Assembly: GCA_029204225.1 (NCBI GenBank)
Contig: CM055101.1
Coordinates: 46,301,906-46,365,905, forward strand
DNA length: 64,000 bases
Reading direction: 5' to 3'
Source: Diphasiastrum complanatum
Taxonomy: Eukaryota > Streptophyta > Lycopodiopsida > Lycopodiales > Lycopodiaceae
The stretch's first letter is position 1; each line of letters starts with the position of its first letter. A program made the translations under genes and the position numbers. This document shows, one piece after another, positions 8,300 through 61,499 of the stretch. The notes below the pieces were generated by a model that was not told the origin of the DNA, searched no databases, and worked only from the letters and a program-made list of their open reading frames with translations.

Positions 8300-8502
8300 T
8301 TCAGATAACCATAACTTTTGTCATACTTCATCTTTTTTGATGATTCAAATCTTGTTTTAGAGAGATTGTCAAACTAGTGAGATCTATCTCACAGTTTTTT
8401 GCTTAGTCTTACATAGGATCTGGTTATTTACCCTTGATTGGTTCCTATAGTGAGAAAATAAGCAATTTTTTCATCCATCTTTTTTTATTTCTATCATTCT
8501 TT

Positions 8503-14973: not shown

Positions 14974-14985
14974 GCTCTGATACCA
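14974..14985 (-). other. Copia-3 primer binding site
   Basis: Minus strand reads TGGTATCAGAGC directly after the 5' LTR, matching the 3' end of initiator-Met tRNA. Confidence 0.9.
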
Positions 14986-15638: not shown

Positions 15639-17350
15639 GAATCTACAAGCTTGATCCCAAAGAGTATGCTAACTCTTGTGATGGTGCTTTTGCTTCTCAT
15701 ATTTCTTGGGAGGAACTATGGCATAGAAGGTTGGGGCATCCTAACTATAGTTCTATGGTGTCCATGGTCAAGAAAGCCAAAGCTATTGGCTTGCCTAATC
15801 TTATCTCCAAAAATTTCAAGCCATGTGAGGCTTGTGCCATATCTAAATCTCATAAGAAGCCTTTTTCAAAGTCATCTATTAAGACTACACATCCATTGGA
15901 GCTCATACACTCAGATGTGCACTTCTCATCTTCAAAGAGCAAGGTTGGTGCTACTCGCTTTGTAACTTTCATTGATGATTTCACAAGATTTACTTGGTTA
16001 TATCTTCTAGCTTCAAAGTCTATGGTGTTTGACTATTTCCTAAAGTTCAAAGCTCTAGTTGAAAAGCATTTTTCATACAAAATTAAGATTCTTAGAAGTG
16101 ATGGAGGTGGTGAGTACGCTTCCAATAAATTTCATGATTATTGTGAGCTTGAAGGCATTAAAAGGGAGTTTTCTTGTGCATATACACCATCTCAAAATGG
16201 GGTGGCTGAAAGAAAGAATAGAACCTTGTGTGAATGTGCCAAAACCATTAGAATTGAGGCATCCTTGCCAAAAGCCTTTTGGGGTGAGGCCATCAATTGT
16301 TCAAACTATCTTTGCAATCGACTCCCTCATGTTGCACTTGGAGGAAAGTCACCATATGAAGCACTTTATTTGAAGAAACCTAAGGCTGATCATCTTAGAG
16401 TATTTGGATGCATATGCTTTGTCCATATTCCCTTGGAAACAAGAAAGAAGGATGATCCTTGTGCAAGCAAAGGAGTACTGGTTGGATATTCATCCAACAA
16501 GAAAGCCTATCGAATCTACATGCTCTCTACTTCTAAAGTAGTTGAAAGTAGAGATGTAGTTTTTCATGAAGAAGAAAAGTACAATCTTGGAGGGGCCGAG
16601 ATCAAGCAACCTCAAAATCTATCACCTTTTGTTATTGAAGGCCATCAACATATGGAGGGGTCAAGATTTGAAGATGGAAGTCCTCGGATTTTCACTCCTA
16701 TAAGATCCATGAGGGAGAGATCCGAGCCTAAGAGGCTCACTTATGATGAAAAAGGAAAACAAGTGGATCTTGATTCCACTTATGCTTATTTTGTTTCTCA
16801 TGAGGAGCCCAAAGATGTCCAAGAAGACCTCAATACCAAGGAGTGGTATGAGGCCATGAAGATTGAATATGATGCCTTGATCACCAACCACACATGGGAG
16901 CTAGTGGATCCACCACCTAACATGCATATTATTGGATGCAAGTGGGTGTTCAAGATCAAGTACAATCATGATGGCTCCATCAACAAGTACAAGGCAAGAT
17001 TATGTGCTAAAGACTTTGCACAAATATATGGCCATGACTATGAAGAAACCTTTGCTCCTGTAGCAAAGATGGTGACAATAAGAATCATAATCTCTCTTAC
17101 CCTATTTGTTAAGTGGAAATTGTATCAACTTGATGTCTCCAACGCTTTTTTGAATGGCTATCTTGAGGAGGAGATATACATGGAACAACCTCAAGGATTC
17201 ATCAAGGATAAATCTAAGGTGTGTTTGCTATTTAGAAGTCTTTATGGCTTGAAGCAAGCACCTAGATCATGGTATTCAAGACTCAACAACTTTCTACTTT
17301 CATTAGGATTTGTGCTTAGTGACTATGATCCTTCTATGTACTTCACACTT
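15639..17350 (+). pseudogene. Copia-2 integrase and reverse transcriptase part
   Basis: Resumes Copia-2 after the inserted Copia-3. It shows an integrase zinc-binding HxxxH/CxxC region (HRRLGHPNY, CEACAISKSHKK), the core (HSDVHFSS, SDGGGEYASN, QNGVAERKNR) and the first half of a Copia reverse transcriptase (QLDVSNAFLNGYLEEEIYMEQP, YGLKQAPRSWYSRL). It ends within that domain near 17350; everything downstream of it in a normal Copia is absent. Confidence 0.88.
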
Positions 17351-17880
17351 ACATATCTCTATCGCATTACAATGTTTTGATGCACTTTCAATTCTTTGAA
17401 GGGCTCAAGTTATAGGAATGGTTGCTTCACAGCTTTACGCATTACCGATCATGGACAATATTATAGCTAGTGACTTACATAAGACAATAGGTGTTGAGTA
17501 ATTTTTTTTGGTGTCTCATTTTTCATTAAACATATTAGACAAACTACTTTTTGCATGGCATCTCATTCCATGTACTCTCATCGATTTGTACACCAATGTA
17601 CTCTCATCCTTATTTAAATATAGAAAGGGTTCTCTCATAGAATATTTTTGTCTTGATTTGTCATGGTAATATTACATCAAACTATTGTTCTTTATTGTTG
17701 GTCCTTGTTCCTTGCTTGCCATGATTCAACAAAAAGATAGATATGCTACCTTTTTTATGTCACTAGTTGAATGTTTATCATTAAGAAGTTGTGGTTTGGT
17801 ACATAGTAAGAAATCTCACTATAGAACACCAAAGTAAGAAATTTTTTTAATTAGAATTATTTTTTAGCTTTCAAACATAC
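17351..17880. other. No gene recognised
   Basis: AT-rich DNA with no similarity I can name and no plausible coding frame. Confidence 0.5.
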
Positions 17881-19381: not shown

Positions 19382-19716
19382 ACATAGGAGCACTTGCATG
19401 GTGTTTGACTGCTATAATGCAAGAATAGGGGGTCAATAGCTTAATATAGGCTACATGGGAATTCTAAGGGGAATATTTTCTCCTCTTGCAAAGAATACAT
19501 ACCATGGAAACTCGCCCATATTCTCCCTATTGGAATTTCAGGTTCTTGAGCCAGGTTTCCTCTCCTCTCTTGTATTCATTCACTGTGGCTTGGGGGTGAA
19601 GGGTTAACGTATTGACTAGCTTCTTCATGTTGGTTGGGTGGTTTATGCTCCACTGGTGTCCTTTTGGTTTGCATGTGACAGGATTCTTGAAGATCTTCAC
19701 TTGGCGATCGTTATAG
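19382..19716 (+). repeat. LTR-like direct repeat, copy 1
   Basis: About 335 bp from ACATAGGAGCACTTGCA to CTTGGCGATCGTTATAG, closely matched by 22577-22911. Copy 1 is followed at once by TGGTATCAGAGC (19717-19728), an initiator-Met primer site, so it is probably the end of a 5' LTR. The outer LTR end could not be fixed. Confidence 0.65.
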
Positions 19717-19728
19717 TGGTATCAGAGC
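19717..19728 (+). other. Primer binding site of a decayed LTR element
   Basis: TGGTATCAGAGC, matching the initiator-Met tRNA 3' end, directly after direct repeat copy 1. Confidence 0.75.
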
Positions 19729-20089
19729 TTGGATCACATCAATCAGGAGGTGGGGCTTGAGGATCTTGGTTTTTTGCAGCTTTTTGGGTGTACCTCTTTG
19801 CTTTTTCTTTCAGGTGATGAAATTCACATCCAAGTAGGTGGCTTCTCAGATCCTTGGTGTACTTTCAGCCTAATGATCATAATTGTAGATTTGCTCCATG
19901 AATCTTGAAGGAAATTATAGGATTTTTGATGATTTTAGTGAAAATTTTCACCTAGAATTCATGTTTTTTGCTTGGAATTGATCATAGGTACTGATGTAGT
20001 ACATTTTTCAGATTGTACTATAGGTTATAGTTCATTTTTGATGTGGAGACTAAATCTATTAAGATCTAGATAATCGTTGACTTCCTACA

Positions 20090-20345
20090 TGACATGTAAG
20101 ATATGTTGCAATTAACACGTGATACTTTCTGTAGTGCTCAAGACAGAGCTAAGCACTATGCTGATCTTAAGAGATCTCCTAGAGATTTGAAAGTTGATGA
20201 TTGGGTATATCTTAGAATCTCAAAAAAGCATTATAAGTTGTCTACCAGATGTTGTCGACTGTTTAGGATCATAAAGAAAATTGGATCTTTAGCTTACAAA
20301 CTTATAGTCATTAATGATAGGATTTATTGATTGCATGTTGGTTAA
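20090..20345 (+). pseudogene. Gypsy integrase C-terminal scrap
   Basis: Translation shows SAQDRAKHYADLKRSPRDLKV, DDWVYLRISKKHYKLS, RIIKKIGSLAYKL. This is the region after the integrase core of Ty3/Gypsy chromovirus-like polyproteins (RAKHYAD..R...F..GDWVYL.L). It is only about 80 residues with no other pol domain nearby; a broken fragment. Confidence 0.8.
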
Positions 20346-20399
20346 ATAGTCAATATGATAGTTAAATAGTGATTTTTGGACCAAAAATTGGGGTCATGG

Positions 20400-21550
20400 G
20401 CTATAGAATCCATATTTTAGTGCTTGCATGTAATGGATTTACATGGTTTAGGATCAGATTGCACTTATTTGTGGATCCACAAATTTCGGTCAAAAAACAT
20501 GGTTTTTTGATGATTTTTGGACTAATTTTGTGGTAGATCTCAAAATTCATAGCCAATATTTTGCATGAATGTTTTTCAAGGTGTAATAAAGTTTTTCTAA
20601 GGCTTTCATGAATTTTGCTTAGGATTGGACACCATTAGGGAGCTTAAAACATGAAAGAATAGTGTTTTTTTGGGGATTTTTGGGCATGAATACCTATCTA
20701 ATGGGGGTCTGAACCTATTGGTTCTCATTACAAGCTTAAAGATATAATGGATTTCCTCTGTTTTCAGCCATCATGTATTCAATTTGGATAGGTGAGCGTT
20801 AGACACCATCAGGTTGAAGTTTTGCTTGTTGAAGGAGGCCAAAAATCCATTTTTTGCTTGATCTAAGCTTATGACTGCTTGTTGGACCAGTTAGAAGCTT
20901 CCATGCCTCTCTAATAAACCTTAATAGAGTGCTTGTAACCTCTGATTGGATGCTTATTGGGTTAGAGATGAAGTTTTGATAATACTACTTTGGAAAAGTG
21001 CGCCCTCCTACCTGATTTTCTGTCATTTACTGCTCGCACGTGTGAAGCCTAGGTGGTAGGGTGATGTGGCAAGTGCCTTGTAGACCCACTCTCCCTCCAT
21101 ATTGTGCTTTACAACGATCAGTTGGTGTCCTGAAGTTTGGCAATTTTTGAACTAAAATTTGCAAAATTTTGGAGATGTTCTAATGCATGCATGCTTGTAA
21201 CTCAGTGTAGTGCTTCTCTGTTGATGGAAATGTATGGATTGACCTGTATGCATGCTTGGATGCATGTTGCATGTGTAATCAGTAGGTTGATCAGTAGATT
21301 TCTTGCAAAAAGCTATTTTTGAAAATTTTAGGTCAAAAAGCAGATTTCCTAGTGGCTAGGCTATATGAAAAAAATTTCATTTTTTTGAATAAGTCAGTGC
21401 ATGTCAAGTTTGATGCATGCAAGATGTTTTGAAATAATTTCGATATGTGACAGTGCCTGTGAAATTGATAAATCGATCTTCTTAATTGATTTTCACAGTT
21501 GGTCCATTTTGAACAGATTTTCAAAAATCTCAGTTTTTCGTAGATTTATA
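20400..21550 (+). repeat. Old dispersed repeat, plus copy
   Basis: Parts of this stretch (for example 20600-20800 and 21000-21180) match 35280-36300 in inverted orientation, including the GTGTCCAATCCTA-type and CCTAGGTGGTAGGGTGATGTGGCAAGTG-type blocks. It is non-coding. It may be LTR sequence of an old Gypsy family, since it follows the integrase scrap. Confidence 0.6.
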
Positions 21551-22576
21551 TTAACGAAATTTACTTAAATAAGTGAAAGACCTTGCTAAGTAATATCAGC
21601 CAGTTATGAAAGTCCTGAATATTTCACTTATTGGTTGATGACGATATCAACTAATTAAGCTAATTTTGCATTTCAAGAAATAAATGTAGCAGATAATAAT
21701 GCAACTATTGCTCTTGATGGTCAGGTGCCCATGCCTACTTATCTACAAATTTGCCACTCGTTAAGCCAAGCGCTTAATAAAATAAACAACATGAACACTG
21801 TTAGAAATCAACAGATGAAAGTACTATTAAATCAAGTGATAACTTTATCCGTACCTGATCAAGACGTCCATGTCATCTATTTGGCGGCTCACCAGTACAT
21901 TTGTCACAAGCCGGACAGATTCTCCAACTAAATTAGATGTTGTCCAAGTGTGACTGCCAACAGCACGTAGTGTCTTAATTATGTCTGTAAATCACATATT
22001 AATCATTCTTTTAATCGGTTAGCCATGTGCATATATACAGACACTTATCAGTTGTTGTGGTTAAGCTCCATGAACACTGAATCAAAGCTCAATAGTTTTG
22101 ATCTTCTTCTCTATCACTATAGAGTATTGTTTTAGGAAGATCGCGACTCTATTCAGCATTCAGACTGTATTCTCTTCACGATTGAATGATTTCTATTCCA
22201 ACAATCTGAGTTGTGAATGTCGTTTTGAATGCTTGTTTTCATTCATTTTCAGAGTGCTTCATACTAGCAGATTAATTGTTTTGTAGATTAAATCATTTTA
22301 TATGAGTATAGCATTGTTCGTTTCTTACTCTCATAACTGCATTTGATACAACGCTTCTGTAAAGCTAAACTCTATAATCAAGGTAATTTGTGCATGGCTA
22401 GGAAAGCGACTTAGTCAATCCAGCAACTTAGAAGTTGTGATCAATCAAGTAGGACAGACTTCGAAGTCGATCTGATTACTAAATCGACAAACTTAGTTTC
22501 ATGCACCGAGGATTCCCTGTTGCTGCATTTTTGTTGCAACAAACATTGAAGGTTGATCCACCTGTCAAATCCCAAC
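21551..22576. other. No gene recognised
   Basis: AT-rich DNA. The right end (CAAATCCCAACA at 22565-22576) could be an LTR terminus that truncates direct repeat copy 2, but no partner was found. Confidence 0.4.
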
Positions 22577-22911
22577 ACATAGGAGCACTTGCAGGGTGTT
22601 TGACTGCTATAATGCAAGAATAGGAGGTCAATAGCTTAATATAGACTACATGGGGATCCTAAGGAGAGTATTCTCTCCTCTTGGAGAGAATACATACCAT
22701 GGAAACTCATCCATCTTCCTATTGGAATTTCAGATTCTTGAGCTAGGTTTTCTCTCCTCTCTTGTATTCATTCATTGTGGCTTGGGGGTGGGTGAAGGGT
22801 TAGGGTATTGACTAGCCTCTTCATATTGGTTTGGTGGTTTATGCTCCACAAGTGTCCTTTTGGTTTGCATGTGCCAAGATTCTTGAAGATCTTCACTTGG
22901 CAATCGTTATA
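22577..22911 (+). repeat. LTR-like direct repeat, copy 2
   Basis: Direct copy of 19382-19716 with scattered substitutions (roughly 85-90% alike by eye). It is not followed by a primer site, as expected for a 3' copy. Confidence 0.65.
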
Positions 22912-44663: not shown

Positions 44664-47600
44664 AGCTATAAGGGAGAGTGCAAGGCTGCTGATAAATAGA
44701 AGTATCAAGAAAATTCGAAGCCCGAAGATCTGCAAGAGTGACAGACATAGAGCAATTCTGGGGAGAACTGACTGGTTCCAGGCAGTATTGAGGGCCGCGC
44801 TACTGGTGCTGGCTCTTTGTTGCAACTTGCTAGCATGCTTCCTACCGCATGGCTCCACGTAACAAACGGGGGGGAGGTAACTCCCCCCACTCTCCACCAC
44901 GCCGTGCTGTCCCGGGAGCTGAACAGAGCCCTACCGGCCCGGAAACCACCTCCCTGTCCATCAAATCTGAGTTTGTGGTACCTGCTGCCATCGTACCTAC
45001 TTCAAGTCTGTCCATTGCATCTGCATCTGATTTGTCCATCGCATCTGCATCTTCCAAGACAGATGCCCACCCTGCTGCTGAAACATTTGCGGTTAATCAA
45101 CTGCCCACAGTTGATTATACCCCTTCCAAACCTACTGAAGGCCTCTTTGCCTATGACATCAGCTTTATTCGGCAAGAAATCCTCGGACTCAAAAGACAAT
45201 TACACTTCCTTGAAATTGAGTGGCAAGCTGGTTTTGGATCTCTGTGGGGCTAAAGAGCGAATGGAGCAACTTGAAAAAGAAAATGTGCATCTTAAGCAAC
45301 AGATTGCAGAACATACCCCGCAAAAGAATGTTTTGGAGGAGACTTCGAACAAAATATCCAGTCTTGAAAAACAAGTAGAAGAAACGAAGACATGGGCAGC
45401 GCATCTCAAAAACAATGGTAAGGCTCAATCTTCAAGCTCGGTTCATGCATTTGTGAATTCTACACTAGAAAATGCCTTTTCTGAGCAAGAAAGAAGGGCT
45501 AAACAAGCCCTTAATATTCGAGTTAGAGGGATTCCCGACGGGGATAAGCCCATTGAGGAGGCAAAAGAGCTGCTTTTAACTAAGCTCACACAAACACGGA
45601 TGGATTTGATACAGCTTGTATCAAGTTTCGCTCAAAACGCCATTGAAAATGGTCAAACCCATAAAGCCACTGATGTCGACCTCCTAAGCATGGACTTCCT
45701 AAAACCAGTTGCTCACATTATTGCCCCGTACATTTCCCAAATCTTTAACCAATCTGTCATCTTCGGTCTCCTCACATCTTGGTGCACCAACCTTTTACAC
45801 CCTATCCTCAAAGTCGGGGATCCTTTGAAAGTAGACAACTACCACACTATTATGATTAGTCATATTATGGCCAAGCTATATGGATCCGTTTTGCAGTCTA
45901 TTATCAACTCACAGGTAGAGACAGAGGAGTTACATGCTTTGGGATAGGCAGGTTTTCGCGTTGGCTTCTCCACGGCTGACCAGATATTCATCCTGAGATG
46001 TATTATTGAGGAGGCTAAGTTCAGGAAGCAAAGGGTTTATTGTTGCTTTGTGGACTTCCGCAAAGACTTTGATTCTGTTCCGAGACACCTTTTACTTCGG
46101 CGCCTAGCATCGCTTGGCCTTTCTCAAGATATCATTGATGTTGTCATCACATTGTATGAGAGTGTGTTGGCTTGCTTTCGAGATGGTGATGGATGGTCCT
46201 CTTATATGCATAGTACAGTGGGAGTTAAGCAAGGATGTCCTTTGCCCGCTACCCTCGTTGCTCTATACATTGATGATCTTGAGCGGATTATTAGGGAAGA
46301 GCGTGGAGATGGCTGTTCGTTAGCAGATATGATTATCCCTATTTTACTATATGCGGATGGCGTGATACTACTATCGAGATCAGCATCTAGGCTTCAGCAG
46401 CACCTTGACGCTTTATATACTTTCTGCCAGACATGGGGTTTGATGGTGAACATTGGTAAGACTAAGGTCATGGTGTTTAACACCAATCGACAGCATATGC
46501 GAGACTACTATGATGGGCAGCCACTGGAGATAGTAGCCTCTTATACATACTTGAGTGTCCTTTTTACTGGTCTATTGCTCACTTTTAGACCAGCTGCACT
46601 ATCTAGGCTCCGCAAAGGGCACTCTGCTCTTGTCCAGATAGAGAGGTTTTCCTCTATTTACTATGTACATGATCCTGATACGCGCTGTCGCCTTTTTTCT
46701 GCCACTGTCTCTCCGGTTGCTCTATATTCAGCAGAGACATGGTGTCCTGGCCTGTCTAGAGATACTTGGAGTGATATTTCAAATCTGCAGATCCTTATGC
46801 TTAGCCGGATGATCCGTGCAAAGCAATCAGTCCCCCATGATATCATATTGGCGGAGTTTGCCTCACCACCATTGATTGTTGAGGCTATATTTCGGATTAT
46901 CACATTCATTCAAAGAGTCACCGAGCTTGATTCATCCAGATACGTAGTTGCAGCTTTCACATCCTCCTCTGGCTAGTCAGCAAGCTAAGTCCTCATGGTT
47001 TTAGTGTGTTTCTGACCTTTTAAGTATGTGGAGTTTATGTATATCTGATCTCCCGAATGGGACTCATGCATATATCCGCCAACAGATTTACAGAGCTTAC
47101 ATTAGCACAGTGTGGTCTCACCCAGATCCATCACGGGTCAAGCTTCATTTTCATAAACTCACCTTCTTCAGCTTGATGTTTCCGGGCTTCCCATTCGGCC
47201 GTGTTATTTGTCTCAAACGTTATCTTTTGGCTTGCGTTATCGTCTCGGTCAGCTTAGGGTCTCTTCTCACCAGCTTGCTATTGAGACAGGCAGATACACA
47301 GACACACCTCGACCACTACGGATTTGTCAGTGCTGCTCTTTACAGGAGATTGAGGATGAGTTCCACTTCATTTTCCGATGTCCGGCCTACTATGAGATCA
47401 GAGGCAGAGACCATTGCTTATACAGAGATACTCCACTTACACTTGGTTCTTTCCTTGACTTCTCAGATGCAAGATGTGTTGGTTTGTTATTACGAGAGAT
47501 GTTTACTTTGAGATCTTCTCTTTTATTGGATGCTTCTGATGTGGATCATAGTCAGTCCCACATTACACACTTTTTCCAAAAGCGGGATAGAGATGAGACT

Positions 47601-50600
47601 TTTGACAGTGAGATAGACATTCCAGTACGACGACCGAAGCTCCAGCATCCTCTTCGCTCCTCCAGGTCCAAGGCTTTTCACCGGAGGCCAATGTCTGCTT
47701 CCCACCATATCACGCAGTTTTTTATATCCACTTAGTCAGTTAGTTAACTTATATCAGTTTTCTCTTTCCCTCTGTGTAGTGGTTAAGCTACTAATATTGT
47801 ACCCTCAACAGAGCTAGAGGTTAAGCTTTGTTTTTCTCTATGTTTTCTTGTGTTGGTTTAGCTTTTAGGAATAAGTCCTACGTGGACAATGCTCCTTTCT
47901 TTTTTGATGTACTTTTTACTTGTCTTATGTGCCCTTGGTGTAATAGATCCCAACACCACAGTAGGGCAAACACTAACTGATCCACCCAACCTTGCCTACT
48001 CCCTGATATAGAGTAAGCCCCTCCTAGCCCAGTGTGAGGACTGGTAGCATGCTACTGCCAAGTGTCGGCCACGTGTCACTGACGTGGCCGACTGCACGTC
48101 GGGACCCAACTGGGGGCCCTATCCTGCTGACAGGGTCCCTAGACTGTGTTAGGCCCGCCATGGCTATGGACCGTGCTGGGGCACACTACTCACACTGTCT
48201 TGCCCTGTTGGTCATGTACACTGGACACGACCCTGACTGTGGTATCTGACCTATCTGTGTTCTCTAGGGTTCGGCACTGGTTACGAGCTCGTAACACTCC
48301 CTCCCCCTTAAGAACCGTCTTGGTCCTCTAAGACAAAGTCTGGAAAAATCTTGCGAAGGACGCTGCCTCTTTCCCAAGTGGCATTCTCAACAGGCTGATC
48401 ATTCCACTTAACCAGATATTCTCGGTATAGAGTATGACGAGTCTGCGTCTCTCTACTATCAAGAATCTCCTCTGGTTCATGTGGAGGTTGTTGAGGATCC
48501 AATGGGAGAACTAGAACACTGTCCCCTACCAGATTATCTGATCTGGTTAAGGCTTTTCGTAACTGACTTACATGAAAGACTGGAAAAACCTTACTGCTGT
48601 GTGGGAGTTCTGGTTCATAGGTGACCTCGCCTAGTCTCCTACTGATGGTAAAGGGACCACAATACCTTGGAGACAACTTAGCACACACTCCTGATTTGAG
48701 GGTTTTAGAGTCAACTGGGACTCTCAAGTAGACTTTCTCACCAGTGGAGAACTGCACATCCCGTCTGTGTGGATCTGCATAATGCCTGGCTCGATCCTGG
48801 GATTGTCTAATGCTACGCTTAGCATGTTCTATCATCTGGTTTAGGTCTTCTAAAAAGTTTCTGGCTGCTTCAACTTTTTCTTGTTTAAACCCTACAGCTG
48901 TGGGTGAGCGTGGCTGAAAACCGTACATCAGCATAAATGGGCTGTATCCCGTAGCTGAATGTTTGGTACTGTTGTAAGCAAACTCTAATATCGAGAGATA
49001 CTCCTCCCAATTAGTCTGCTTCTTGCTGACGTATGCACGAAGCATATCCTCCAGCACTTGATTTACCCTTTCTGTTTGACCGTCCGTCTGTGGATGGTCG
49101 GTGGTACTCATATTAAGTTTAGTATGGAGATGATGGAATACTGCCTTCCAAAAATTTCCAGTAAACTTACTGTCCCGGTCGCTGACTATGCCGGAAGGTA
49201 GACCGTACAATTTAAATAGCCCGTCTACAAACAACCTCGCTAACTCTGGAGCTCTAACGGTTGTTTTGGTCGGAATAAAATGAGCCATTTTGGTCAGACG
49301 GTCAACTGTGACCCATATAGCGTCATTACCCTTTTGGGTTTTAGACAGGCCTACTATAAAATCCATGGAGACACTCTCCCATTTACCAGCTGGTATTTCT
49401 AAGGGATGCAACAACCCTCCTGCCTTTAAACGCTCTGCTTTATTTACTTGACATTTCTGGCAACTGGTTACATACTGGTGGACGTCCTTTTTCATACTGG
49501 GCCAGAAAAATTGCCTACGAAGAAGCTCATAGGTCTTCTGTATGCCTGGGTGTCCCGCGCTAGGATTGTCATGACATTCATATAGGACCTGCTGCCTATA
49601 ATCCTCTGAATTGGGGACACATACTCTATCTCTATAGAGCAAGTACTCATCCTGAATGGAATACTGTTTCCATTTGAATCCTTGAGTCAACTGACCCTCA
49701 ACCCCTGGGGTTTGCTTGGGTAATACAGGCTCAGAATCCTCAACGTCATCTGATGACGTATACTCGGACTCATCATCATCCTCAACGGAAGCTGCCGTAT
49801 TCTTGGATGAACTGGCACCAGCCCCGGGAACTGGTTCTGGAGTCTGTAACTGTCTGTTCTGGACTGAGTTCCAGATAATAGAGAAGAATGCATCATGCTG
49901 GCATTTCCCTCTCAAGGACTCGAGTAACTCATTACGAATCTGAGTAAAACTCAACTCGTTTATCATAGGCATTCTGCTAAGGGCATCTGCTACTGTATTG
50001 AATTTTCCACGCCTATATCTGATAGACATGTCAAACTCTTGCATCAACTCTGCCCAACGAGCTTTCCGACCTCTAAGCTCAGGTTGATTGCAAAGGTATC
50101 TGAGACTCTCATGGTCTGTCAGGACCTCAAAGTTGGCACCATACAAATAATGCCTCCAAGTCTTAAGGGCATGGACTATAGAAAAGAGTTCCTTTTCATA
50201 GGCACTATACCTAGTCTGTGCTGGCTCGAGTTTTTTACTCTCGAACGCAACTGGTCGTCCACCCTAAGTTAGCACAGCACCTACTGCAAAGTCGCTAGCA
50301 TCTGTTTCGACCACAAATGGCTGATTGGGGTCGACGACCTTTAAAACTGGTGCTGTAGCTAAGGCTGTTTTGAGAGCATCAAAGCTCTCCTGTTGTGCGG
50401 ACTCCCAAATGAACTCCTTTCCCTTCCCCTTAAGGAGATTTGTCATAGGGACTGCTATCTGAGCATATTCCTTGACAAATCGTCTGTAATATCCCGCCAG
50501 ACCAAGAAAGATTTGAAGTTCCAAAATATTTTGAGGTCTCAGCCAACTGAGTATGGCTTTAACCTTATTTGGGTCCATCTTAATCCCATCTGAAGAGATA

Positions 50601-53600
50601 ATGTGACCCAAATATGCTATTTCTTCAACGAAGAATTCACACTTGGATTGTTTAGCATAAAGCTTATGCTTTCTGAGCAGTCGAAACACCTTTCTGAGGT
50701 GTTTTAGATGCTCCTTCCTGGTTTTGCTGTAAACGAGGATGTCATCTAAAAATACGACTACAAATTTACCCAAGTATGGTCTGAGGACACTGTTCATCAA
50801 GGTCATAAAGGTAGCTGGAGCATTTGTGAGCCCAAATGGCATCACCTTAAACTCATAATGACCGTGACGAGTCCTAAAAGCTGTTTTCGAGACATCTTCC
50901 AATTTTATACGGACTTGATGATATCCCGATCTGAGGTCTATTTTGCTGAAAAACTTAGCCCCGTCGAGTTGATCAAACAACTCGTCTGCCCGAGGCATAG
51001 GGTATTTATTCTTAATTGTGACTTTATTGAGGGCTCTGTAATCTACGCAAAGACGCATAGACCCCTCCTTCTTTTTCACCAATAGGACTGGTGAGGCCCA
51101 TGGTGAACTACTGGTCTGAATTTGGCCTTTCCCAAGATAGTCTGTTAACTGCCTAGTTATTTCTTCATCCTCTGTTCGGCTGACCCGATACGGAGGTTTA
51201 GAAACAGGTGCTGTACCTGGTACTAGGTTTATTACATGATCTACCTCTCTGCTAGGTGGTAAACCATGTGGCAAATCTTCAGGAAAAACATCTTTAAATT
51301 TAGACAATAAAGTTTCTAATTTACTGATTTTCTGCTGAATAGAACTGGAAATAGAAACTTCAGGAATAAACTGAAAGTCACATAAGAATACCTGATGGTC
51401 TTCGTCTCCGATTAGCTGACAGAGCTCTGAACTGCAGACCATAGGGCTGTTGGGAACATCATGCTCCCCATGCAACTGGATCTCTCGGCCTTTATACTGA
51501 AAGCTGAGGGTGTTCTCCTGATAGTTTCTGTGGAGGGAAGGTCCTAAACTGTAGAGCCAATCTCTCCCGAGAACAATGTCTGTTCGATCCAGGTGCATTA
51601 TCTGAAAGTTTATTTGATCTTGGTACCCCTGAATACCAAGATTTAACTTACTTACCATAGTTTCCCATATTTTTTTATCTTCACCCTTAGCTAATGAAAC
51701 TATGTACCTATGTTGACTAGGTACTTCTGGTAGTTTAAGCTTTTTAACCAGGGTGTGGTTGATGAAATTATGGGTTGCCCCATCATCAACCATGACTCTT
51801 ACTGACTGGTTACCAACTTTCCCATGCATACGTACTAGGTCATGCGGCCCAAAGCTGAAGGGTCTCGCTAGCATTGCAGAGGTCAGCTGGCAACAGTGTT
51901 CATGATCTTCATGATACACTTTGATCTCGGAAGCTGCCGAGTCACTGGGGAAACATACAGTCTGAACAAGATGAACTTGTTTTTTATCTTTTTTAGTGAA
52001 AGGCCCCTTGGGACACTGTCTGACTGTGTGTCCCTTGCCCATACACACAAAGCACAAACGTTCTTGTTTGGCTTTCTCAAAATCATCTGGTTTTAAGGGC
52101 TGTATGAGTGAAGGGCGTTTCTGAGGAGCTTCACCTTTAAATTTATCTTCTTTCTTTCTTTTTAAAAATTTCTTTTTAAATTGAAAGTCTTTCTGAGGAA
52201 GCTGCTCAGAAAGTGGTTGTTGTCTCGCTCTCTTCCTACCCACTGAATCATCATAGATTTGAGCATATCTGAGAGCTTGCTCAAGGGTAGTAGGCGAGTT
52301 TCTCTGGACCTCTACTTTATATTCATCTTTGAGGCCACGGACAAATCCCCTGATTTTTTGATAGTCATCCATATTTTTAATCTTTAAAATTGCCTCTCGA
52401 TACTGCGAGATATATTGGATGAGGGACTTATCCATTACTGTTCTTTCCCAGGCTTCCCAGGCTCTATCAAGTTCATTCTCTGGTAGAAATTCTCTTAGGA
52501 AAGCTTCTTCAAAAGCTTTCCATGACCGGGGAGTCTGCCCAGTCTCCTGGAGATTTAACCACCACTTATAGGCCATAGGCCCTAAAGAAAGACTGGCCTC
52601 AATTGCTTGCAAATGGTCAGGGGTCTGTTTAAGAGCATGAATGTTCTTCCATTTGCTGAGGAAGGTTTGTAGAATATCTGCATTTCTATCCTTCTCTTCC
52701 CCATTAAAAGTAGGAGGCTTTAAATCTTTAAAAACACTGGGGTGAGACCGTAAAGTCTCACCCGAAACTGATGGAAGTGGAGAAGGGGATAACTGAGAAG
52801 TGGAGGGAAGGCTTCCTTTCGCAGAGCTCAAAATCAAGTTTTTGAGTTCAGCGAACGAGTCGTCCACACTGGACTTGAAATTGGCTAATGCCAGCTTCAG
52901 TTCATCCACCTCTGTTACCAATTGGAGGAACTGCTCCTTGGTAACCAGTTCGTCGAGTTCTTCGGCGAACTGTTCCTGTTCTTCTACTTCCATGGGTTCC
53001 TTCCCTTTTCTGTAAGCCAAGGCTTCTGTTTCAAGTTCGTCGAAGCCTCTCTCCTGGGGTTGATCAGGTCCCTGAGGAGTGGTCATCTTCGAAACTGAAA
53101 GAGAGCTACCTTAACTTCTGAAGGAAAAAAGTCTAAAAGACTAATTTACAACTGTACAAGGGAAAGGAAAGATGACTTAGCTGTTTCTGAAGACTGTACT
53201 TCCAAAGAAAGAATGAAGAGGAACCCTTTCAGCTCTTTTCCCCAAGATTTCAGACCTGCTGTTCGGAAAAATCAGAGATCAAGGTACCAAGAAAAAGAAA
53301 CAAACTTCTGATCGTCTTGGCCCCTTCCCTCGCTGTCTGAGGTGTATACTTTTTGCTCCAAAATTCCCGTTTTAGGACCCAAAACAGTTACAAACTTGTG
53401 GTTCCTGCCAAAGACCTTCAGCGTTGGACCTGCACCACGTTTTCTATTTAAAATGTGCTAAAAAATCCACAACTGATACATAAAAATCAAGGGTAAATCC
53501 CTGATTTTTCAGCGCTGAGCTTCTACAAGGGATTGTGCCTCAAACAACTGTAAATTCCCAGCAAATTTCAAGGATTTGAAAGCTGTTCCTACAGCGATTT

Positions 53601-54098
53601 TCCTCCTCAATTCTTTTCTGAGAATCTGAGAAATCTTTCCTATCTTCTGATAGCTTTCTCTACTACTGTCCTGAACTCCCTAGGATGGAGATGGCTCTGA
53701 TACCAGTGTAATAGATCCTAACACCACAGTAGGGCAAACACTAACTGATCCACCCAACCTTGCCTACTCCCTGATATAGAGTAAGCCCCTCCTAGCCCAG
53801 TGTGAGGACTGGTAGCATGCTACTGCCAAGTGTCGGCCACGTGTCACTGACATGGCCGACTGCACGTCGGGACCCAACTGGGGGCCCTATCCTGCTGACA
53901 GGGTCCCTAGACTGTGTTAGGCCCGCCATGGCTATGGACCGTGCTGGGGCACACTACTCACACTGTCTTGCCCTGTTGGTCATGTACACTGGACACGACC
54001 CTGACTGTGGTATCTGACCTATCTGTGTTCTCTAGGGTTCGGCACTGGTTACGAGCTCGTAACACTTGGGCACTTGATAGACATTAATATATAATTCT

Positions 54099-54934: not shown

Positions 54935-55025
<91 letters not shown>

Positions 55026-57220
55026 GATGGTGATGGCTCTGTTGGTGATCGCTGTTGTAGTGGATCATGCCTGCTCCAGAGAAGTCCAGCGGACTACCTC
55101 CCAGCCCCAACGGCCCTGGCCTGAAAAAGGATAGAACCAAAATATTGAGACTCAAACCTAAGCTGAACGGTACACAAATTTCCTTGGACGAGGATCTTAC
55201 CTATATCCAAGTTCAAGAACGCAAAAAAAAATTCCAGGAGGCTAAAGCATCAGGATGTTTTGCAGTTTGTCGAGACAGTGGTGTTAGACCGAGGTCCATC
55301 TTCCTTCAGCGCCTAGGAAGTTGGGGCTCTCAGGCGTAGGAGCAGTCCATCCACACCCACATCACCTACATACATCCCATCTACGTATCAGGTAATGGAA
55401 CTGTAATGGTATTCATTCTTCATCAACAATAGGTGATTTAGCAGTTCATCGCACAAGGCGATATCCTTCTTTTCACAGAGACTCGTGAGAGTCAGTTTAG
55501 GAGACTACCGGAGTTTCAGGGCTTTAGATAGGTTTCTATTTTTCGTTCAGAGACTAGATCTGCTGGATGCAGAGGTTCTGGTGGTGTAGCATGCTTATAC
55601 AGGGATTCATTACAGTTTATCATTGATCTAGTTCGACAGGATGAACATGCATGTTACATATGGCTTCATTCTCTCATTCGGCACCAGAATCGGAAGCTCT
55701 TTAAAAGAAATTCAATAAAAAATAAAAATCGAAGAAGTCACGAAATTCGAATAATAATTCGAATTTAGAACAAGGCACAAATTTGAATTCAGCTTCATCG
55801 AAATCAAAACTATTTTGCAAATATTGCAAACAAACGAGGTTTACCGTTCTCCGAGCCAAAATGTCCGAGCGGCGAGCTGTTTTCCGAGAAGTGGTCGTTG
55901 CATGCCCCCATTTTCTATCGAGGACCGTCTCTTAGAGGCAACTCCAAACTCGCAACAATTGGTAATTGACACACTTAGATGATTGGCGACTTAATGAGAC
56001 ATTGTGATACATCACACAATGCACATGCACAACATAAGTCTACTATTTCCTACTGAGTTCCAGCTAAAGTTTTATATGCCAAACTTTCACACGCACACAT
56101 TTCTAATTTTAAAAGCCGTTTCAAACAGCCCATTTGAAACGAACTTTTCATAATGGAGCTTCATTGAATGAAATGCGTTTCGGTGAAACATTGGCTTTAA
56201 GAAATTTTCATTTTAAGACCTTGCGAAAAATAGAAGGCTCATGAATTCCCTTTTCAACTAATCCTCAAGTTTCTTTTGGCATGAATTTCTTCCATGTTCC
56301 CCAATTCCTCCTCTCATAGACCTATTCAATTTCTCCTTCGCTACCATTTGCAATCCCCATCTCTCCGTCAAATCCTATTGGTAATAGTGAATCCACTATA
56401 GCCCATCCTTTGACCCCGAATACCCCAGAAGAGGAATCACTTTTGCCTCCAACCTTTATGATCTTCGTCGTTCGCGCAGATCAGTTACATTCTTATGAAT
56501 ATCTCAACAACCATCATGAAAAACTTTCCTCTCTTGAAGCTATGATCTATGTTGTGCAATCGCATCTTCAAAAACTTGATTCGTCTATCGATGATCTCAA
56601 GCAAGAAGTTGCAGCTATCAAAATCGAAGCTTCTTCTCATTCGACTACTTCAACTAAGATCCAACAACTTGAAAGTCAAGTGGAACAGCATCATACTGCT
56701 GTCCAATCTTGGGCAGATGTGCTTAAAGGTCCTAATACTGTTGTTCTACGACCTCCATCTTCATTTATCTCAGCTACGTTCACCGAGAGCCGTTTGCAAG
56801 AGCAGAAGGCTCTTAATGTCCGGGTTAGAGGTATTACTAACTCCCATGATGTTGTTGGTGAAGCAAAGGCAAAACAGGAGGCTCTAACAAATGGAAAGCA
56901 GATGATCTATAGGGATGGTATCATTCGATTTGTAGATATTAAATCTGTTGCTATTAGTGAGATATCTGAGATTGTTCAGAGTTAGGTTGAGAGTTAGAGC
57001 ACTGAAGAGATGCCCAATTGAACTTGTAAATGGTCTTCGTACCATATAATCCTGGACATTGTTCTCTTCTTAGTTAGTTTGGTTTTAGTTATGTTGTCTT
57101 GACGGCATTGCTCCATCTTGGTGTCATCTTATCTGATGTAATTGTTCGTTTTATACGCCTTTTGGCATGGAAAAGACGTTAATGAAGCTTTCTTCTTCTT
57201 CTTTTTCTTCTTCTTCTTCT

Positions 57221-57309
<89 letters not shown>

Positions 57310-60077
57310 GGCCCGCGATGGCCTAGCTCCATCGTTCCAATGTGGCGCTAACCTACGGATCTGTTCTCCATCGTTGCCCATCACTAGTGCCCTGCCGCTG
57401 CAGGTGTGCCCTCGCTATTGATCCGTGAATAGCTTATCTGTACCTGAATGTACCTCTGCAGGTTTGAGCACCCTCCTCCATTGCAATAAGATCCCTCATA
57501 ATGCCACGTCGCAAAGGAGCCGTTGCCTCTACTCCTAAGCCATCCTTTGTTTCCAACATTGCTTCTGTTGGAATATCAATCCACACTCTAGAGAGAACTA
57601 TCAAACAGGGCAGATAGCTCAGTGGTAGAGCATCCCATCCGGTATGAGGGAGGTCCTGGGTTCGAATCCTAGTCTGTCCATCCATATTATGATTTATGGA
57701 TTTCTAACATGGTATCAAAGCCAAGTCAAAGCCATGGTTAGGTGGCCCAAGTTGTGGGGCAGGTGACAGCTAGGACCCCAACCAAGTGTGGCTTGAGGGG
57801 GGGGGTGTTGGAATATCAATCCACACTCTAGAGAGAACTATCAAACAGGGTGGATAGCTCAGTGGTAGAGCATCCCATCCGGTATGAGGGAGGTCTTGGG
57901 TTCGAATCCTAGTCTGTCCATCCATATTATGATTTATGGATTTCTAACAGCTTCAGCATCTTCCTTACAGCCAGATCCACTTACCCCTTCTCCTTCTATG
58001 CCTGTTGCGGTTCCTATCTCCCCATCAAACCCTATTCTTGACAATAGTGAAACTACTGTAGCTATTCCCTTGACTCCAAACACTCCAGAAGCACCTGTTT
58101 CTTTCCCCCCATATGCCTTGGTCAAACTTCTTCGGGATGATCAACTCCGTCTATTTGAATACCTTAACAATCACAGAGAGCAACTGGCTTCTCATGATTC
58201 TCTGCTTTTAGTGGTGCAGAAGTTGGATACTTCCATTCAAGAACTCAAGAACGAAGTTGCAATTATAAAAAGTGAAGCTTCTTCCCAAATCGTTACTTCA
58301 GCTAAAATCCAGCAGCTCCAAAATCAGGTGGAACAGCACCATACGACTGTCCAGTCAGATGTGCTTAAAGGTTTGTCTACAGTTATCTCTCCACCTTCGC
58401 CTTCGCCTTCGTTTATCTCAGCCACGTTCACTAAGAGCCGTCTGCGAGAGCATAAAGCTCTCAATGTTCGTGTTAGAGGTATTCCAAACTCTCAAAATAT
58501 TGTTGAAGAAGCTGAGAAATTTTTGGAAGGAAATCTTCAACACCATAAAAAAGGTATGGAAACTGCCTGGCGACCTAAGAAGGACCTGGATACTCTTGTC
58601 ATCCGCTTCACATCAGTGTCTCACGTGAAGTTCTAGGGAAGAGATTTAAATTGCGGGATACCAAAATCTACTTGGACGAAGATCTTACCTTCATCCAAGT
58701 TCAAGAACGTAAGAAGGCAAGACAAGAAGCTCTATCAGCTGGCAAACGGCTTATCTAGCGTGATGGTATTATCAGATTGGTAGATCGAAAGCCTATAGTT
58801 AATGAGAAAAATTCTGAGATAGAGTCTGAGATAGAGAAATGAAGAGATGTCCAGTTGAACATGTAAATGGTCTACACACCATATTATCCTGGCTATATGA
58901 CTCTTCTTATTGCTTTGACGGCACTGATCCGTCTTGTGTCCAACTTATCTGATGCACTTGTTCGTCTTATATTCCTTTTGGCATGGAAAAGACACTAATA
59001 AAGCTTTCTTTTTTTCTTTCTCTCTCTGAAAAATATTGGACTACCTTCCCACATAAGACAAATTTCAGCTGCCTAATTGCAGTGCACACTAACAATAAAG
59101 GTAACTTAATGGGTGTTTTCTTCATCCTTAAAATTGTTGTAAAGAAAAACATCATTGTAACCAAAAGACATGCCACAAAAGATCATCCTTAAAACTATAC
59201 ATAAGAACTCGCTTTGGCATACTTTGTGTGTCCAAGACAAAAGGTATGAATCTCATGCGCTCCCAATGTAGGTTCCTTGGGAAAGTCACTAACCTGCAAT
59301 TTGGAATAGAACATAAAAGCTTGAGTTATTTGAAAGTTCACATTCTTCAAACTCTTAAATGAAAAAGTTGAATCGATTCCGTAAAAAAGTTGAATCTGTT
59401 CACATTCTTCGAACTCTTAAGTGAAAACATTCCCAACAACCAAACCTTGCCAAGAATTGGTGATTCTTACACGAATCTTAAAATCCCGGTCGCTGCTAAT
59501 GACAAACTTCATTTCGGGCGAACATTCCTGCAATGCAATTAAACTCTCCATGTGATTTATTTTGTTCCTTTAGGAATAATTTACACTGCATCATGACTGA
59601 AAAACCTCAAAATTAGCATGGCATTGATCTGATGAACAGAGCCTGAAGGCAAGACAATGAACCTATGAATATGCCTGAAATTCTGAATGATCTGTTACCA
59701 TTAATTTAATATTGAGACACATTCAGTTATTTGCAAGCCATGCATACTTCACCTCATTCAGTAAGAACGGGCAGAAAAACTTGAAAGTACTAAGCGACAA
59801 GTGTTCCATCAAATTCTTCATGCACATAACTTACATAAATTATAATTGGAAGCAAGGAAACGCTGACCAGATGGTGCTCATTTAGACAAGACCTACCAAG
59901 CCAGTGATAATGCTGCAACAATGGCCAAAGAGTTGCACAGGTTCTGGATTGATGTTCTCATCACCTTCTTCAGTGATCTTTATTGCGACAACATACACAA
60001 CGCCAAACTTGTCTGCAAACATGAGGTACTGGCTGCAGTGACTGAACGTAATTGCACTCACTTTCTTGCTTGAGTGG
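38713..60077 (-). CDS. tRNA m7G46 methyltransferase WD40 subunit (TRM82/WDR4-like), 5' exons not found
   Basis: Host gene on the minus strand. Its product is the non-catalytic partner of the TRM8/METTL1 methyltransferase, which makes 7-methylguanosine at tRNA position 46. Eight exons can be set at 59897-60077, 59471-59527, 59223-59293, 44474-44549, 44315-44374, 40058-40167, 39443-39503 and 38713-39204. Together they give about 368 residues with matching splice phases throughout. Family landmarks in order are [74 protein letters not shown] and a basic C-terminal tail with [20 protein letters not shown]. These match the Arabidopsis homologue as I recall it. About 80 N-terminal residues are missing; their exons lie upstream unrecognised or beyond 64000. 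No break is seen in the eight exons, so the gene is probably functional. One intron of 14.7 kb is full of mobile elements. Confidence 0.9.
39443..39503 (-). CDS. TRM82-like exon with [11 protein letters not shown]
   Basis: 61 nt between acceptor TCAATGCAG and donor GTTGGA. One base completes the Arg codon begun in the previous exon, then 20 codons. It matches the VALQSLQGIMLL part of plant TRM82. Confidence 0.82.
40058..40167 (-). CDS. TRM82-like exon with [15 protein letters not shown]
   Basis: 110 nt, acceptor CTCTCAACAG, phase 0 start. The donor is GCAAGT (a GC-AG intron): GAAAG|GCAAGTG matches the GC donor consensus, and the phase (2) fits the next exon exactly. Confidence 0.82.
40168..44314 (-). 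other. TRM82-like intron, 4.1 kb
   Basis: No coding sequence, RNA gene or recognisable element seen. Short frames near 41216-41674 have no family resemblance. A small GGGCCTCC/GGAGG hairpin lies near 41897. Confidence 0.6.
44315..44374 (-). CDS. TRM82-like exon with IRLWDYQTG
   Basis: 60 nt, acceptor TTTCTCCAG, donor GTTAGT, phase 0 at both ends. Holds the WD dipeptide of a WD40 blade. Confidence 0.88.
44474..44549 (-). CDS. TRM82-like exon with FVSCVAF..GGGDST
   Basis: 76 nt, acceptor GGTACAG, donor GTAAGA. The first base completes a codon from the upstream exon 14.7 kb away, then 25 codons run into the next exon in phase 0. Confidence 0.88.
44630..44656. repeat. (CT)n tract before LINE-A
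   Basis: Short CT run (CTCTCTCTCTC...) immediately before the LINE-A 5' region. Confidence 0.85.
44849..45610 (+). pseudogene. LINE-A ORF1-like region
   Basis: The start at 44849 ([10 protein letters not shown]) was chosen by analogy with [10 protein letters not shown] in LINE-D and MPAPEKSSG in LINE-C1. A Pro/Ser/Ala-rich N-terminus is followed, after a frameshift near 45235, by a coiled coil ([32 protein letters not shown]) at 45255-45410. Then comes [20 protein letters not shown] near 45505-45565, shared with the other units. Probably an RNA-binding ORF1 protein. Confidence 0.75.
45670..46976 (+). pseudogene. LINE-A reverse transcriptase
   Basis: Non-LTR reverse transcriptase with [20 protein letters not shown] (near 45830), [63 protein letters not shown] and [15 protein letters not shown]. 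The catalytic YADD is YADG (GGC near 46358-46360), removing an essential Asp. A TAG at 45945-45947 interrupts the frame before AGFRVGF. The copy cannot make active enzyme. Confidence 0.9.
47208..47735 (+). pseudogene. LINE-A C-terminal zinc knuckle and tail
   Basis: Downstream of the RT in another frame. It carries [19 protein letters not shown], a C-x2-C-x9-H-x4-C knuckle of the kind found at LINE C-termini. The tail ends with two copies of a PIP-box-like motif, QSHITHFF (47553-47576) and HHITQFF (47703-47723), the second six codons before the TAG stop. The 3' UTR follows. Confidence 0.75.
47934..47938. repeat. Gypsy-1 target site duplication, left
   Basis: CTTGG directly before the LTR, repeated at 54065-54069 after the second LTR. 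Confidence 0.93.
47939..48296 (-). repeat. Gypsy-1 3' LTR
   Basis: 358 bp, TG...CA. Contains an inverted pair GGCCACGT (48067-48074) and ACGTGGCC (48082-48089) with a 7-bp spacer. Open frames inside it are LTR sequence, not genes. Confidence 0.95.
48067..48089. promoter_or_regulatory. Inverted ACGT-core motif in LTR
   Basis: GGCCACGT and ACGTGGCC arms separated by 7 bp include a CACGTG G-box and a TGACGTGG motif, typical bZIP/bHLH targets in plants. A role in driving the LTR is inference. Confidence 0.45.
48297..48310 (-). other. Gypsy-1 polypurine tract
   Basis: Minus strand reads AAGGGGGAGGGAG directly before the 3' LTR. Confidence 0.85.
48308..53086 (-). pseudogene. Gypsy-1 gag-pol region with chromodomain
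   Basis: In order from 53086: gag with an RxxPxxL-type core and a CCHC knuckle ([14 protein letters not shown]), and a protease ([12 protein letters not shown]). The reverse transcriptase follows ([37 protein letters not shown]), then RNase H ([12 protein letters not shown]). The integrase has [34 protein letters not shown] and [12 protein letters not shown]. It ends in a chromodomain ([16 protein letters not shown]). Complete domain set, about one break. Confidence 0.95.
53087..53692 (-). other. Gypsy-1 leader, no gene
   Basis: Untranslated leader between the primer site and gag. Confidence 0.7.
53693..53705 (-). other. Gypsy-1 primer binding site
   Basis: Minus strand reads TGGTATCAGAGCC, one base from the 5' LTR; initiator-Met type. 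Confidence 0.9.
53707..54064 (-). repeat. Gypsy-1 5' LTR
   Basis: 358-bp partner of 47939-48296 with about two differences; followed by CTTGG. Confidence 0.95.
54106..54168. repeat. (CT)n tract between LINE-A and LINE-B
   Basis: About 63 bp of CT following the LINE-A terminal motif GACATTAATAT. Confidence 0.92.
54169..54938 (+). mobile_element. LINE-B, 5'-truncated 3' fragment
   Basis: Begins right after a (CT)n tract and resembles the C-terminal knuckle and tail region of LINE-A (GCCCTATTTACTACAAGATT is the counterpart of its CPAYYEIR segment). It continues through a decayed 3' UTR and ends with CTTTTGGCATGGCAAAGACA TTAATAT (54911-54937) before the next CT tract. No intact frame. Confidence 0.7.
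54939..55022. repeat. (CT)n tract between LINE-B and LINE-C1
   Basis: About 84 bp of pure CT. Confidence 0.95.
55023..55690 (+). mobile_element. LINE-C1, 5' fragment with endonuclease start
   Basis: A 5' region then [16 protein letters not shown] (start 55067), equivalent to the ORF1 N-terminus. A deletion then joins it to the ORF1 end ([17 protein letters not shown] near 55170-55215, shared with LINE-D). From about 55440 in another frame come [16 protein letters not shown] and [18 protein letters not shown], the N-terminal part of an apurinic-type LINE endonuclease with its TE motif. It stops near 55690. Broken. Confidence 0.72.
55691..56230. other. No gene recognised
   Basis: AT-rich DNA of unknown origin inside the intron. 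It includes two ATTCGAAT palindromes close together near 55747-55766. Confidence 0.4.
56231..57186 (+). mobile_element. LINE-C2, ORF1-only unit
   Basis: ORF1-like frame 56410-56985 (191 aa). It has a Pro-rich start (TPNTPEEE), a coiled coil ([31 protein letters not shown]), [14 protein letters not shown] and a C-terminus [14 protein letters not shown]. Compared with LINE-D a middle segment is deleted. The 3' UTR aligns with that of LINE-D and ends in TTTTGGCATGGAAAAGACG at about 57160-57178. No endonuclease or reverse transcriptase. The left boundary is approximate. Confidence 0.72.
57187..57306. repeat. (TTC)n then (CT)n tract
   Basis: A TTC-rich run (57187-57225) passes into about 80 bp of CT. 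Directly follows the LINE-C2 terminal motif. Confidence 0.93.
57561..57565. repeat. TRIM target site duplication, left
   Basis: GCTTC before the element, repeated at 57950-57954 after it. Confidence 0.95.
57566..57709 (+). repeat. TRIM 5' LTR
   Basis: 144 bp, TG...CA, holding the tRNA-like sequence at 57608-57680. The part after it contains a small CCATA/TATGG hairpin. Confidence 0.94.
57608..57680 (+). tRNA. tRNA-like sequence in TRIM 5' LTR
   Basis: Folds as a tRNA. The acceptor GGGCAGA/TCTGTCC forms seven pairs with one G-U, the D arm is GCTC/GAGC and the T arm is CTGGG-TTCGAAT-CCTAG. The A box TAGCTCAGTGG (57615-57625) and B box GGTTCGAATCC (57659-57669) are intact. The anticodon arm is irregular: the canonical pairing has a C-A mismatch and no U at position 33, so identity is not assignable. 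There is no T-run right after it, so any Pol III transcript would read on into the element. Not an ordinary tRNA gene. Confidence 0.8.
57710..57722 (+). other. TRIM primer binding site
   Basis: TGGTATCAAAGCC, one mismatch from the initiator-Met type TGGTATCAGAGCC, directly after the 5' LTR. Confidence 0.9.
57792..57805 (+). other. TRIM polypurine tract
   Basis: A GAGGGGGGGGG run directly before the 3' LTR. Confidence 0.9.
57806..57949 (+). repeat. TRIM 3' LTR
   Basis: 144 bp with three differences from the 5' LTR; holds the second tRNA-like sequence and is followed by GCTTC. Confidence 0.94.
57848..57920 (+). tRNA. tRNA-like sequence in TRIM 3' LTR
   Basis: Same fold and the same intact A and B boxes as the 5' copy. 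The three differences between the copies all fall in stems (two in the acceptor, one in the T stem) and all still pair, through G-U wobbles. Confidence 0.78.
59011..59040. repeat. Pyrimidine tail after LINE-D
   Basis: CTTTCTTTTTTTCTTTCTCTCTCTG, the 3' end of the LINE stack; intron sequence of the host gene resumes after it. Confidence 0.7.
59223..59293 (-). CDS. TRM82-like exon with [13 protein letters not shown]
   Basis: 71 nt, acceptor AAATTGCAG, donor GTATGC, ending in phase 2. The text [19 protein letters not shown] is diagnostic of the family. It lies just upstream of the element-filled intron. Confidence 0.9.
59471..59527 (-). CDS. TRM82-like exon with SSDRDFKIR
   Basis: 57 nt (19 codons), acceptor GCATTGCAG, donor GTAAGA, phase 0 at both ends. 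[19 protein letters not shown] matches the conserved [10 protein letters not shown] blade. Confidence 0.92.
59897..60077 (-). CDS. TRM82-like exon with DKFGVVYV and GHCCSIIT
   Basis: 181 nt, acceptor TGTGTGGTAG, donor GTAGGT. One base belongs to a codon started in an unseen upstream exon, then 60 codons from [11 protein letters not shown] to SIITGL. Confidence 0.9.
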
Positions 60078-61499
60078 CTACCACACACAAATGAACATAT
60101 CAAGAGTATCACTATGAAGAACAAATTAGTCCTTTTTCCAAGTTCTAGAACATATACACATGTGAAAATTGTTTTGTGTATACATGCACACACATGCAAA
60201 AAGATGATATGTTGCAAGTTGTGTATATTGAGAATGCAAACATAACAGATAATTTGGACATGTCCCATAACATGAAAGAATCTAATATCCTACAGCAACA
60301 GAATTCTGGAGCCAAAAAGACCCATAAAATAGAGACTAGTAATGTAAAACACCTGGTCCCAATCCCTTCTGAAGCCCCCAAATGAACCATTGGGAGTCAC
60401 TCAAGAGGAAAACATGTCAAATTTCACACAAGAATCATGAGTAAAGCAGATGTCTTAAACAAGGAGAATGATTCACTTGAAAGTTGGTTCCTTGTCTATC
60501 AAATAAGTGAATCGCCCCCTTTGAAGGGCATGGTAGGTGAGTCACGCCACCAATACTTATGATGGAGAGTCCTATTCTAAAAAATTGTTTCACTTATTTC
60601 TTACCACCGATTGATTTATCAGTACTTTGGGCCCTCACATTGAAATATCTTACCCGGCATTCAGGAGCCTTTTTGACATCTTCCCAAAACATGGGGTCAT
60701 CTGGTCTAAAGCAAAATCTTAACCCAAAATGAAGAAGAAAGCATCTTCCCAAAAGTTTATAGCCCATGGAAGAAAGAAGGCATGCAGTAAAAACAAAACG
60801 AGAACTTCTAGCAACTTTGCATGATAGAACACATTGGTGAAAGACATCATGGATGCAATTTGAGCTATGCAAATTCAAATGTCCTAATCAAAAAGCCTCT
60901 CTACATCTACAATAACTTCGAGAATTTCTTAACAAGGCTTTGGCTACATGGCATCACTGACTAAACCACATACTTCTAGCATCCAATCTCACACACAAGA
61001 AAATGCATCACATTCACACACCAAGGTAGCAAAATCATATACTACAGAAGATGCATAGTGTTAAACCACAGCCAGTAAGAAAATCAAAGAGAGAAATAAA
61101 TAGAAGAGAGAGAGAGAGAGAGAGAGATGCACATGAAAGCCCAAATTTTGCTGGAAAAAAAGTAGCAAACTTTAATCGTTCTTGAAATTAGCAGCACCTA
61201 CATAGATGTTTTCCAGGCATGAAATAGTTCCATACAGGACCTGGATGGCTGCCTACACAAAAGACCAGTTAAGTGAATATTTTCTCTCTCCAAAAGTAAT
61301 GATGACCTGGCTGTTGACTCTAATGCTGATTCAGCTGCTTACTGATGGCGCAGCATATTGACATGGCACTACACAACATAGAGTATCAAATAAAGCATAA
61401 AAAGTAATCATTTCCTAATACTCTCCACTTCATGATTATCTTGTTCCCCTTTATCCTACTGGCTCTCGGTGCTTTCTAAATTCTTCTTCAAATAAACTT
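60078..61499. other. No gene recognised; (AG)n at 61103-61128
   Basis: Upstream of the first recognised TRM82-like exon. Missing 5' exons should lie here or beyond the window, but none could be supported. A short (AG)n run is at 61103-61128. The frame at 60594-60878 has no WD40 resemblance. Confidence 0.5.

Follow-up and report, generated by a model that had tools for sequence, protein, structure and literature searches.

A probable Helenus-type miniature retrotransposon with tRNA-like sequences in both long terminal repeats from Diphasiastrum complanatum

A 64-kb stretch of the Diphasiastrum complanatum genome (GenBank assembly GCA_029204225.1, contig CM055101.1, forward strand, 46,301,906 to 46,365,905; hereafter the window, whose numbering is used throughout) contains a complete, non-coding element of 384 bp (57566–57949) with two long terminal repeats (LTRs), each of which carries a tRNA-like sequence. 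We regard this element as a non-autonomous terminal-repeat retrotransposon in miniature (TRIM) of the Helenus kind, which would carry a tRNA-derived promoter block and be mobilized in trans, and assign this reading a probability of about 0.88. TRIMs with tRNA-derived sequence in their LTRs were named Helenus by Kojima in 2024 and grouped with Cassandra and Ajax as TRIMp3; the listed hosts are fungi, animals of six phyla, and a single plant, Selaginella moellendorffii (PMC10886601). The initial annotation of this locus proposed a Cassandra-like TRIM with a captured tRNA-type RNA polymerase III (Pol III) promoter and knew of no described family with a tRNA in its LTRs. The mechanism is reasonable and fits the anatomy reported below. 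The claim of novelty does not survive prior work, as Helenus is exactly such a group, one plant family included (PMC10886601).

The structural hallmarks listed in the initial annotation are all present: 144-bp LTRs with TG...CA ends, a GCTTC target site duplication (TSD), a primer binding site (PBS), and a polypurine tract (PPT) (Table 1). The LTRs are identical at 141 of 144 sites, and the three differences (5′ copy/3′ copy: 57611 C/T, 57612 A/G, and 57656 C/T) are all transitions. This divergence of 3/144 suggests that the element may have moved fairly recently. The internal part between the LTRs is 96 bp long and runs from TGGTATCAAAGCC to GAGGGGGGGGG. We presume TGGTATCAAAGCC to be a primer site of the initiator-Met type. 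A regular expression for this motif type found five further sites in the window with the closely similar TGGTATCAGAGC; three directly abut mapped LTRs, one is 1 base off, and the fifth is at 30482 on the minus strand. The element has no coding capacity, with a longest stop-free stretch of 57 codons across all six frames of the 384 bp.

ARAGORN, run over the whole window with bacterial settings, called a tRNA-Thr (GGT) in both LTRs. The initial annotation had proposed running tRNAscan-SE/Infernal on both LTRs. An Rfam scan of positions 56500–59000 (E up to 10; six matches in all) matched the tRNA family RF00005 in two of two LTRs, with 52.4 and 44.4 bits (E = 8.5e-10 and 1.4e-7) against a gathering score of 29. 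An A–B box pattern of our own writing matched the two LTR sites and no others on either strand of the whole window, and gave one match in total in 100 mononucleotide-shuffled windows. Intact A and B boxes in each LTR, as originally described, are thus borne out. The acceptor, D, and T stems are fully paired in both copies, and when the fold of the 5′ copy itself supplies a 22-pair structure, 44 of 44 cells pair across the two copies. The three LTR differences give Watson–Crick pairs in the 5′ copy and G-U pairs in the 3′ copy, so that the stem pairs are kept, a weak pattern from two sequences; with n = 2 we do not claim selection on the fold. Searching IMG/VR for a pattern of 40 bases from the tRNA-like part returned 0 matches; for a plant, neither this result nor a scan with bacterial patterns for promoters and terminators is informative.

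The anticodon arm is malformed, with 24 bases separating the D and T stems, one more than the usual 23. Read from the sequence, the anticodon assigned by ARAGORN leaves an A-A mismatch and has no U33. Because of this malformed arm, the block looks like a Pol III promoter rather than a working tRNA gene, judging from its sequence. The CAA trinucleotide at 57602–57604 may be a Pol III start motif like that of tRNA genes in plants.

Joining the flanks of the element with a single copy of GCTTC restores a frame (frame 0) that crosses the junction without a stop. As a LINE-like (long interspersed nuclear element) frame is thus uninterrupted at the reconstructed empty site, the insertion is real. 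Over 188 residues, the downstream part of the joined frame shares 61% identity with a second copy at 56332–56883, and over 108 residues it shares 31% with the 45261–45575 frame. The latter is followed by a frame that has a reverse transcriptase domain (RVT_1), from which we infer that the interrupted repeat is LINE-like. The 33 matches to the LINE-like reverse transcriptase comprise nine ferns (seven Adiantum and two Ceratopteris, at 41–50% identity), two Enterobacter, one Volvox, and 21 without an organism name. A long CT microsatellite (57224–57307) lies ∼190 bp upstream of the start of the LINE-like first open reading frame (ORF1); a 94-bp stretch at 54937–55030 shares 95% identity with 57228–57321.

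Comparison with described elements places this one most likely in Helenus, a kind already known, since the five Helenus features examined in the sequence are all present. Like Helenus, it is a two-LTR TRIM of less than 1000 bp (384 bp) that encodes no proteins. It carries tRNA-derived sequence in both LTRs (two of two by ARAGORN and Rfam), with the box A TRGCY...YGG and box B GGTTC of Helenus in each. The PBS follows the 5′ LTR and the PPT precedes the 3′ LTR as in Helenus, the PBS being presumed to be of the initiator-Met type. The GCTTC duplication has the 5-bp length seen in Helenus of plants and fungi. As with the present element, the tRNA of Helenus is unlikely to work; a working tRNA is predicted for only a few Helenus families (PMC10886601). 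The Selaginella element Helenus-1_SMo has a 120-bp LTR, an 85-bp internal part, and 5-bp duplications (PMC10886601), and its comparison with the present element is one of lengths and described features alone. Among the matches listed in the open-licence literature there was no report of plant Helenus beyond Selaginella, and the word ‘tRNA’ occurs 0 times in the main text of PMC4717578.

The element resembles Cassandra in being miniature and non-coding, in having an internal promoter of the Pol III type in both LTRs, and in its plant host; PMC10853983 also gives Cassandra a methionine PBS, the type presumed here. However, Cassandra carries a 5S rRNA block in its LTRs where this element has a tRNA-like block. 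Membership in Cassandra is rejected, as no 5S family is among the six Rfam matches in the scan of 56500–59000 at E up to 10. The two also differ in that Cassandra is reported to have a Pol III terminator in its 5S block, so that its RNA ends in the 3′ LTR (PMC10886601), whereas a run of four T is absent here. Ajax is likewise a TRIM with a small-RNA promoter in its LTRs, but one derived from 5S and known from two nemerteans (PMC10886601). The tRNA-derived A and B boxes are shared with tRNA-headed short interspersed nuclear elements (SINEs; SINE2). Unlike the present element, SINEs lack LTRs, a PBS, and a PPT.

We conjecture that Pol III, recruited via TFIIIC at the A and B boxes, would start transcription just upstream of the tRNA-like block, which would act as a promoter rather than as a functional tRNA. 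Because such a start lies just before the block, U3 would be only the first 36–42 bp of the LTR. The RNA would span the internal part, extend into the 3′ LTR, and be reverse transcribed from an initiator-Met tRNA primer, with reverse transcriptase and integrase supplied in trans by an autonomous element, perhaps a Copia. Two Copia elements of the window have a TGGTATCAGAGC primer site (domains were tested for one), and a Copia partner would fit the 5-bp duplication, though this is no proof of it. The block itself most likely goes back to a tRNA gene or a tRNA-headed SINE, which would have entered one LTR and been copied to the other during reverse transcription.

Several observations weigh against this reading. 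The 64-kb window has no second copy of the element. The fold stability of the tRNA-like parts is not above that of dinucleotide shuffles (z of −1.08 and −0.68), and at minimum energy the 3′ copy does not adopt a cloverleaf. As to the partner, the Gypsy element of the window has the same PBS type, and the internal 96 bp show no clear similarity to any of four LTR elements of the window that were compared. Only one of the four, CopiaB, scored above all 30 shuffles (26 vs 24 for the best shuffle), in a weak gapped match inside that element; derivation of the internal part from any of the four is not supported. Lastly, the 384-bp element lacks any run of at least four T, and thus has no canonical Pol III stop inside its 3′ LTR or elsewhere; the first such run downstream is at 58206. 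This absence is not statistically unusual, as such runs are also missing from 1217 of 2000 shuffles that keep the element's dinucleotides and from 333 of 2546 window tiles, and we reject selection as its explanation. A more specific version of the Helenus reading, in which a plant lineage outside Selaginella made its own tRNA-promoter capture and kept a Pol III promoter with no Pol III terminator in the LTR, is tentative and in our view rather less probable than not. If it holds, the RNA would have to end by another route, either by read-through as far as the T-run at 58206 or by processing of the Pol II type, and would differ in this from the Cassandra cycle.

The missing terminator suits RNA 3′-end formation by RNA polymerase II (Pol II), and the element could be an ordinary Pol II-driven TRIM with polyadenylated RNA, in which a SINE or tRNA insertion is a passenger in the LTR. 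The degenerate tRNA fold points the same way, as do the Cassandra-like TRIMs whose TATA boxes replace the 5S promoter, reported in PMC10853983. Yet only 42 bp precede the tRNA-like block, with no clear TATA box visible by eye, and intact A and B boxes beside a defective anticodon arm are to be expected if promoter function is what counts. Moreover, the block is in both LTRs and was therefore present when this copy of the element was made. We consider a passenger unlikely, though worth keeping in mind. Far less probable is a genuine tRNA gene within a locally tandem-duplicated 144-bp unit that merely looks like a TRIM. Two direct copies do lie close together with no other in the window, but a local duplication leaves the TSD, the TG...CA ends, the correctly placed PBS and PPT, and the intact LINE-like frame of the empty site unexplained. 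The anticodon arm, one base too long and with no U33 in the ARAGORN reading, also speaks against a genuine gene, and we reject this explanation on the TSD, PBS, PPT, and empty-site frame. A separate question, compatible with a Helenus-type TRIM, is whether the host lineage captured its tRNA promoter independently of Selaginella Helenus, which would make plant Helenus convergent rather than one family. The lengths of LTR and internal part differ (144/96 here vs 120/85 in Helenus-1_SMo) and multiple origins of Helenus have been argued (PMC10886601); we judge the odds of an independent capture to be even.

A Helenus-type TRIM at this locus adds a well-preserved plant example to a class with a single plant species in PMC10886601. 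Helenus inflates tRNA gene counts in rust fungi (Table 2 of PMC10886601), and those of the present host genome would be inflated too if the family is multi-copy. The missing terminator also turns RNA 3′-end formation of Pol III-type TRIMs into a testable question.

Table 1. Features of the element and its flanks, in window coordinates
Feature	Position	Strand	Basis
TSD GCTTC, left copy	57561..57565	.	sequence reading
5′ LTR, 144 bp, TGTTGG...CTAACA	57566..57709	+	LTR pair comparison
CAA, 4–6 bases upstream of tRNA-like part	57602..57604	+	sequence reading
tRNA-like sequence, 5′ LTR, 73 nt	57608..57680	+	ARAGORN, Rfam RF00005
Box A TAGCTCAGTGG	57615..57625	+	A–B pattern scan
Box B GGTTCGAATCC	57659..57669	+	A–B pattern scan
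PBS TGGTATCAAAGCC, presumed initiator-Met type, directly at 5′ LTR end	57710..57722	+	
Internal spacer, non-coding	57723..57794	+	
PPT GAGGGGGGGGG, 9-G, directly before 3′ LTR	57795..57805	+	
3′ LTR, 144 bp, TG...CA ends	57806..57949	+	LTR pair comparison
tRNA-like sequence, 3′ LTR, 73 nt	57848..57920	+	ARAGORN, Rfam RF00005
Box A TAGCTCAGTGG, 3′ LTR copy	57855..57865	+	A–B pattern scan
Box B GGTTCGAATCC, 3′ LTR copy	57899..57909	+	A–B pattern scan
TSD GCTTC, right copy	57950..57954	.	sequence reading

The window (39% GC, no N) consists largely of retrotransposons, as judged by long open frames (Copia, Gypsy, and LINE-like). One Copia element has a single long open frame, 653-bp LTRs that are 100% identical (9778–10430 and 14986–15638), and a GATTC duplication. 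It lies between Copia-like frames at 8434–9807 and 15623–17380 (region 8434–17380) and was probably inserted into an older Copia. Of 374 matches to the Copia protein, 120 were listed; the best eight of these are 36–38% identical over 89–99% of the query, shorter ones among them reach 47% identity, and the organism names shown for the 120 include no fern. The Gypsy element (47938–54066, minus strand) has a chromodomain, pol in two frames, 361-bp LTRs that are 99.4% identical, and the primer site TGGTATCAGAGCC. The four best of 26 matches to its protein are from Cucumis melo (35–43% identity), and one of the 26 is from a fern. Taken by themselves, the long frames and their relatives point to a land plant; the LINE-like reverse transcriptase gives a weak lead toward ferns, which the Copia and Gypsy proteins do not favour. 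Another two-LTR element (19382–22911) has ∼338-bp LTRs that are 90% identical and a TGGTATCAGAGC primer site 1 base after the LTR; no listed frame of at least 120 amino acids lies inside it.

The only host gene recognised in the window is a WDR4/Trm82 homologue (59216–60087, minus strand) in three exon-like pieces, whose ends were set by eye. On the same strand, a regular expression for additional WDR4 exons gave three matches, none convincing. The exon-like pieces (about 60087–59216) match WDR4 (PDB 8h0n, E = 2.4e-6), the partner subunit of a tRNA m7G methyltransferase.

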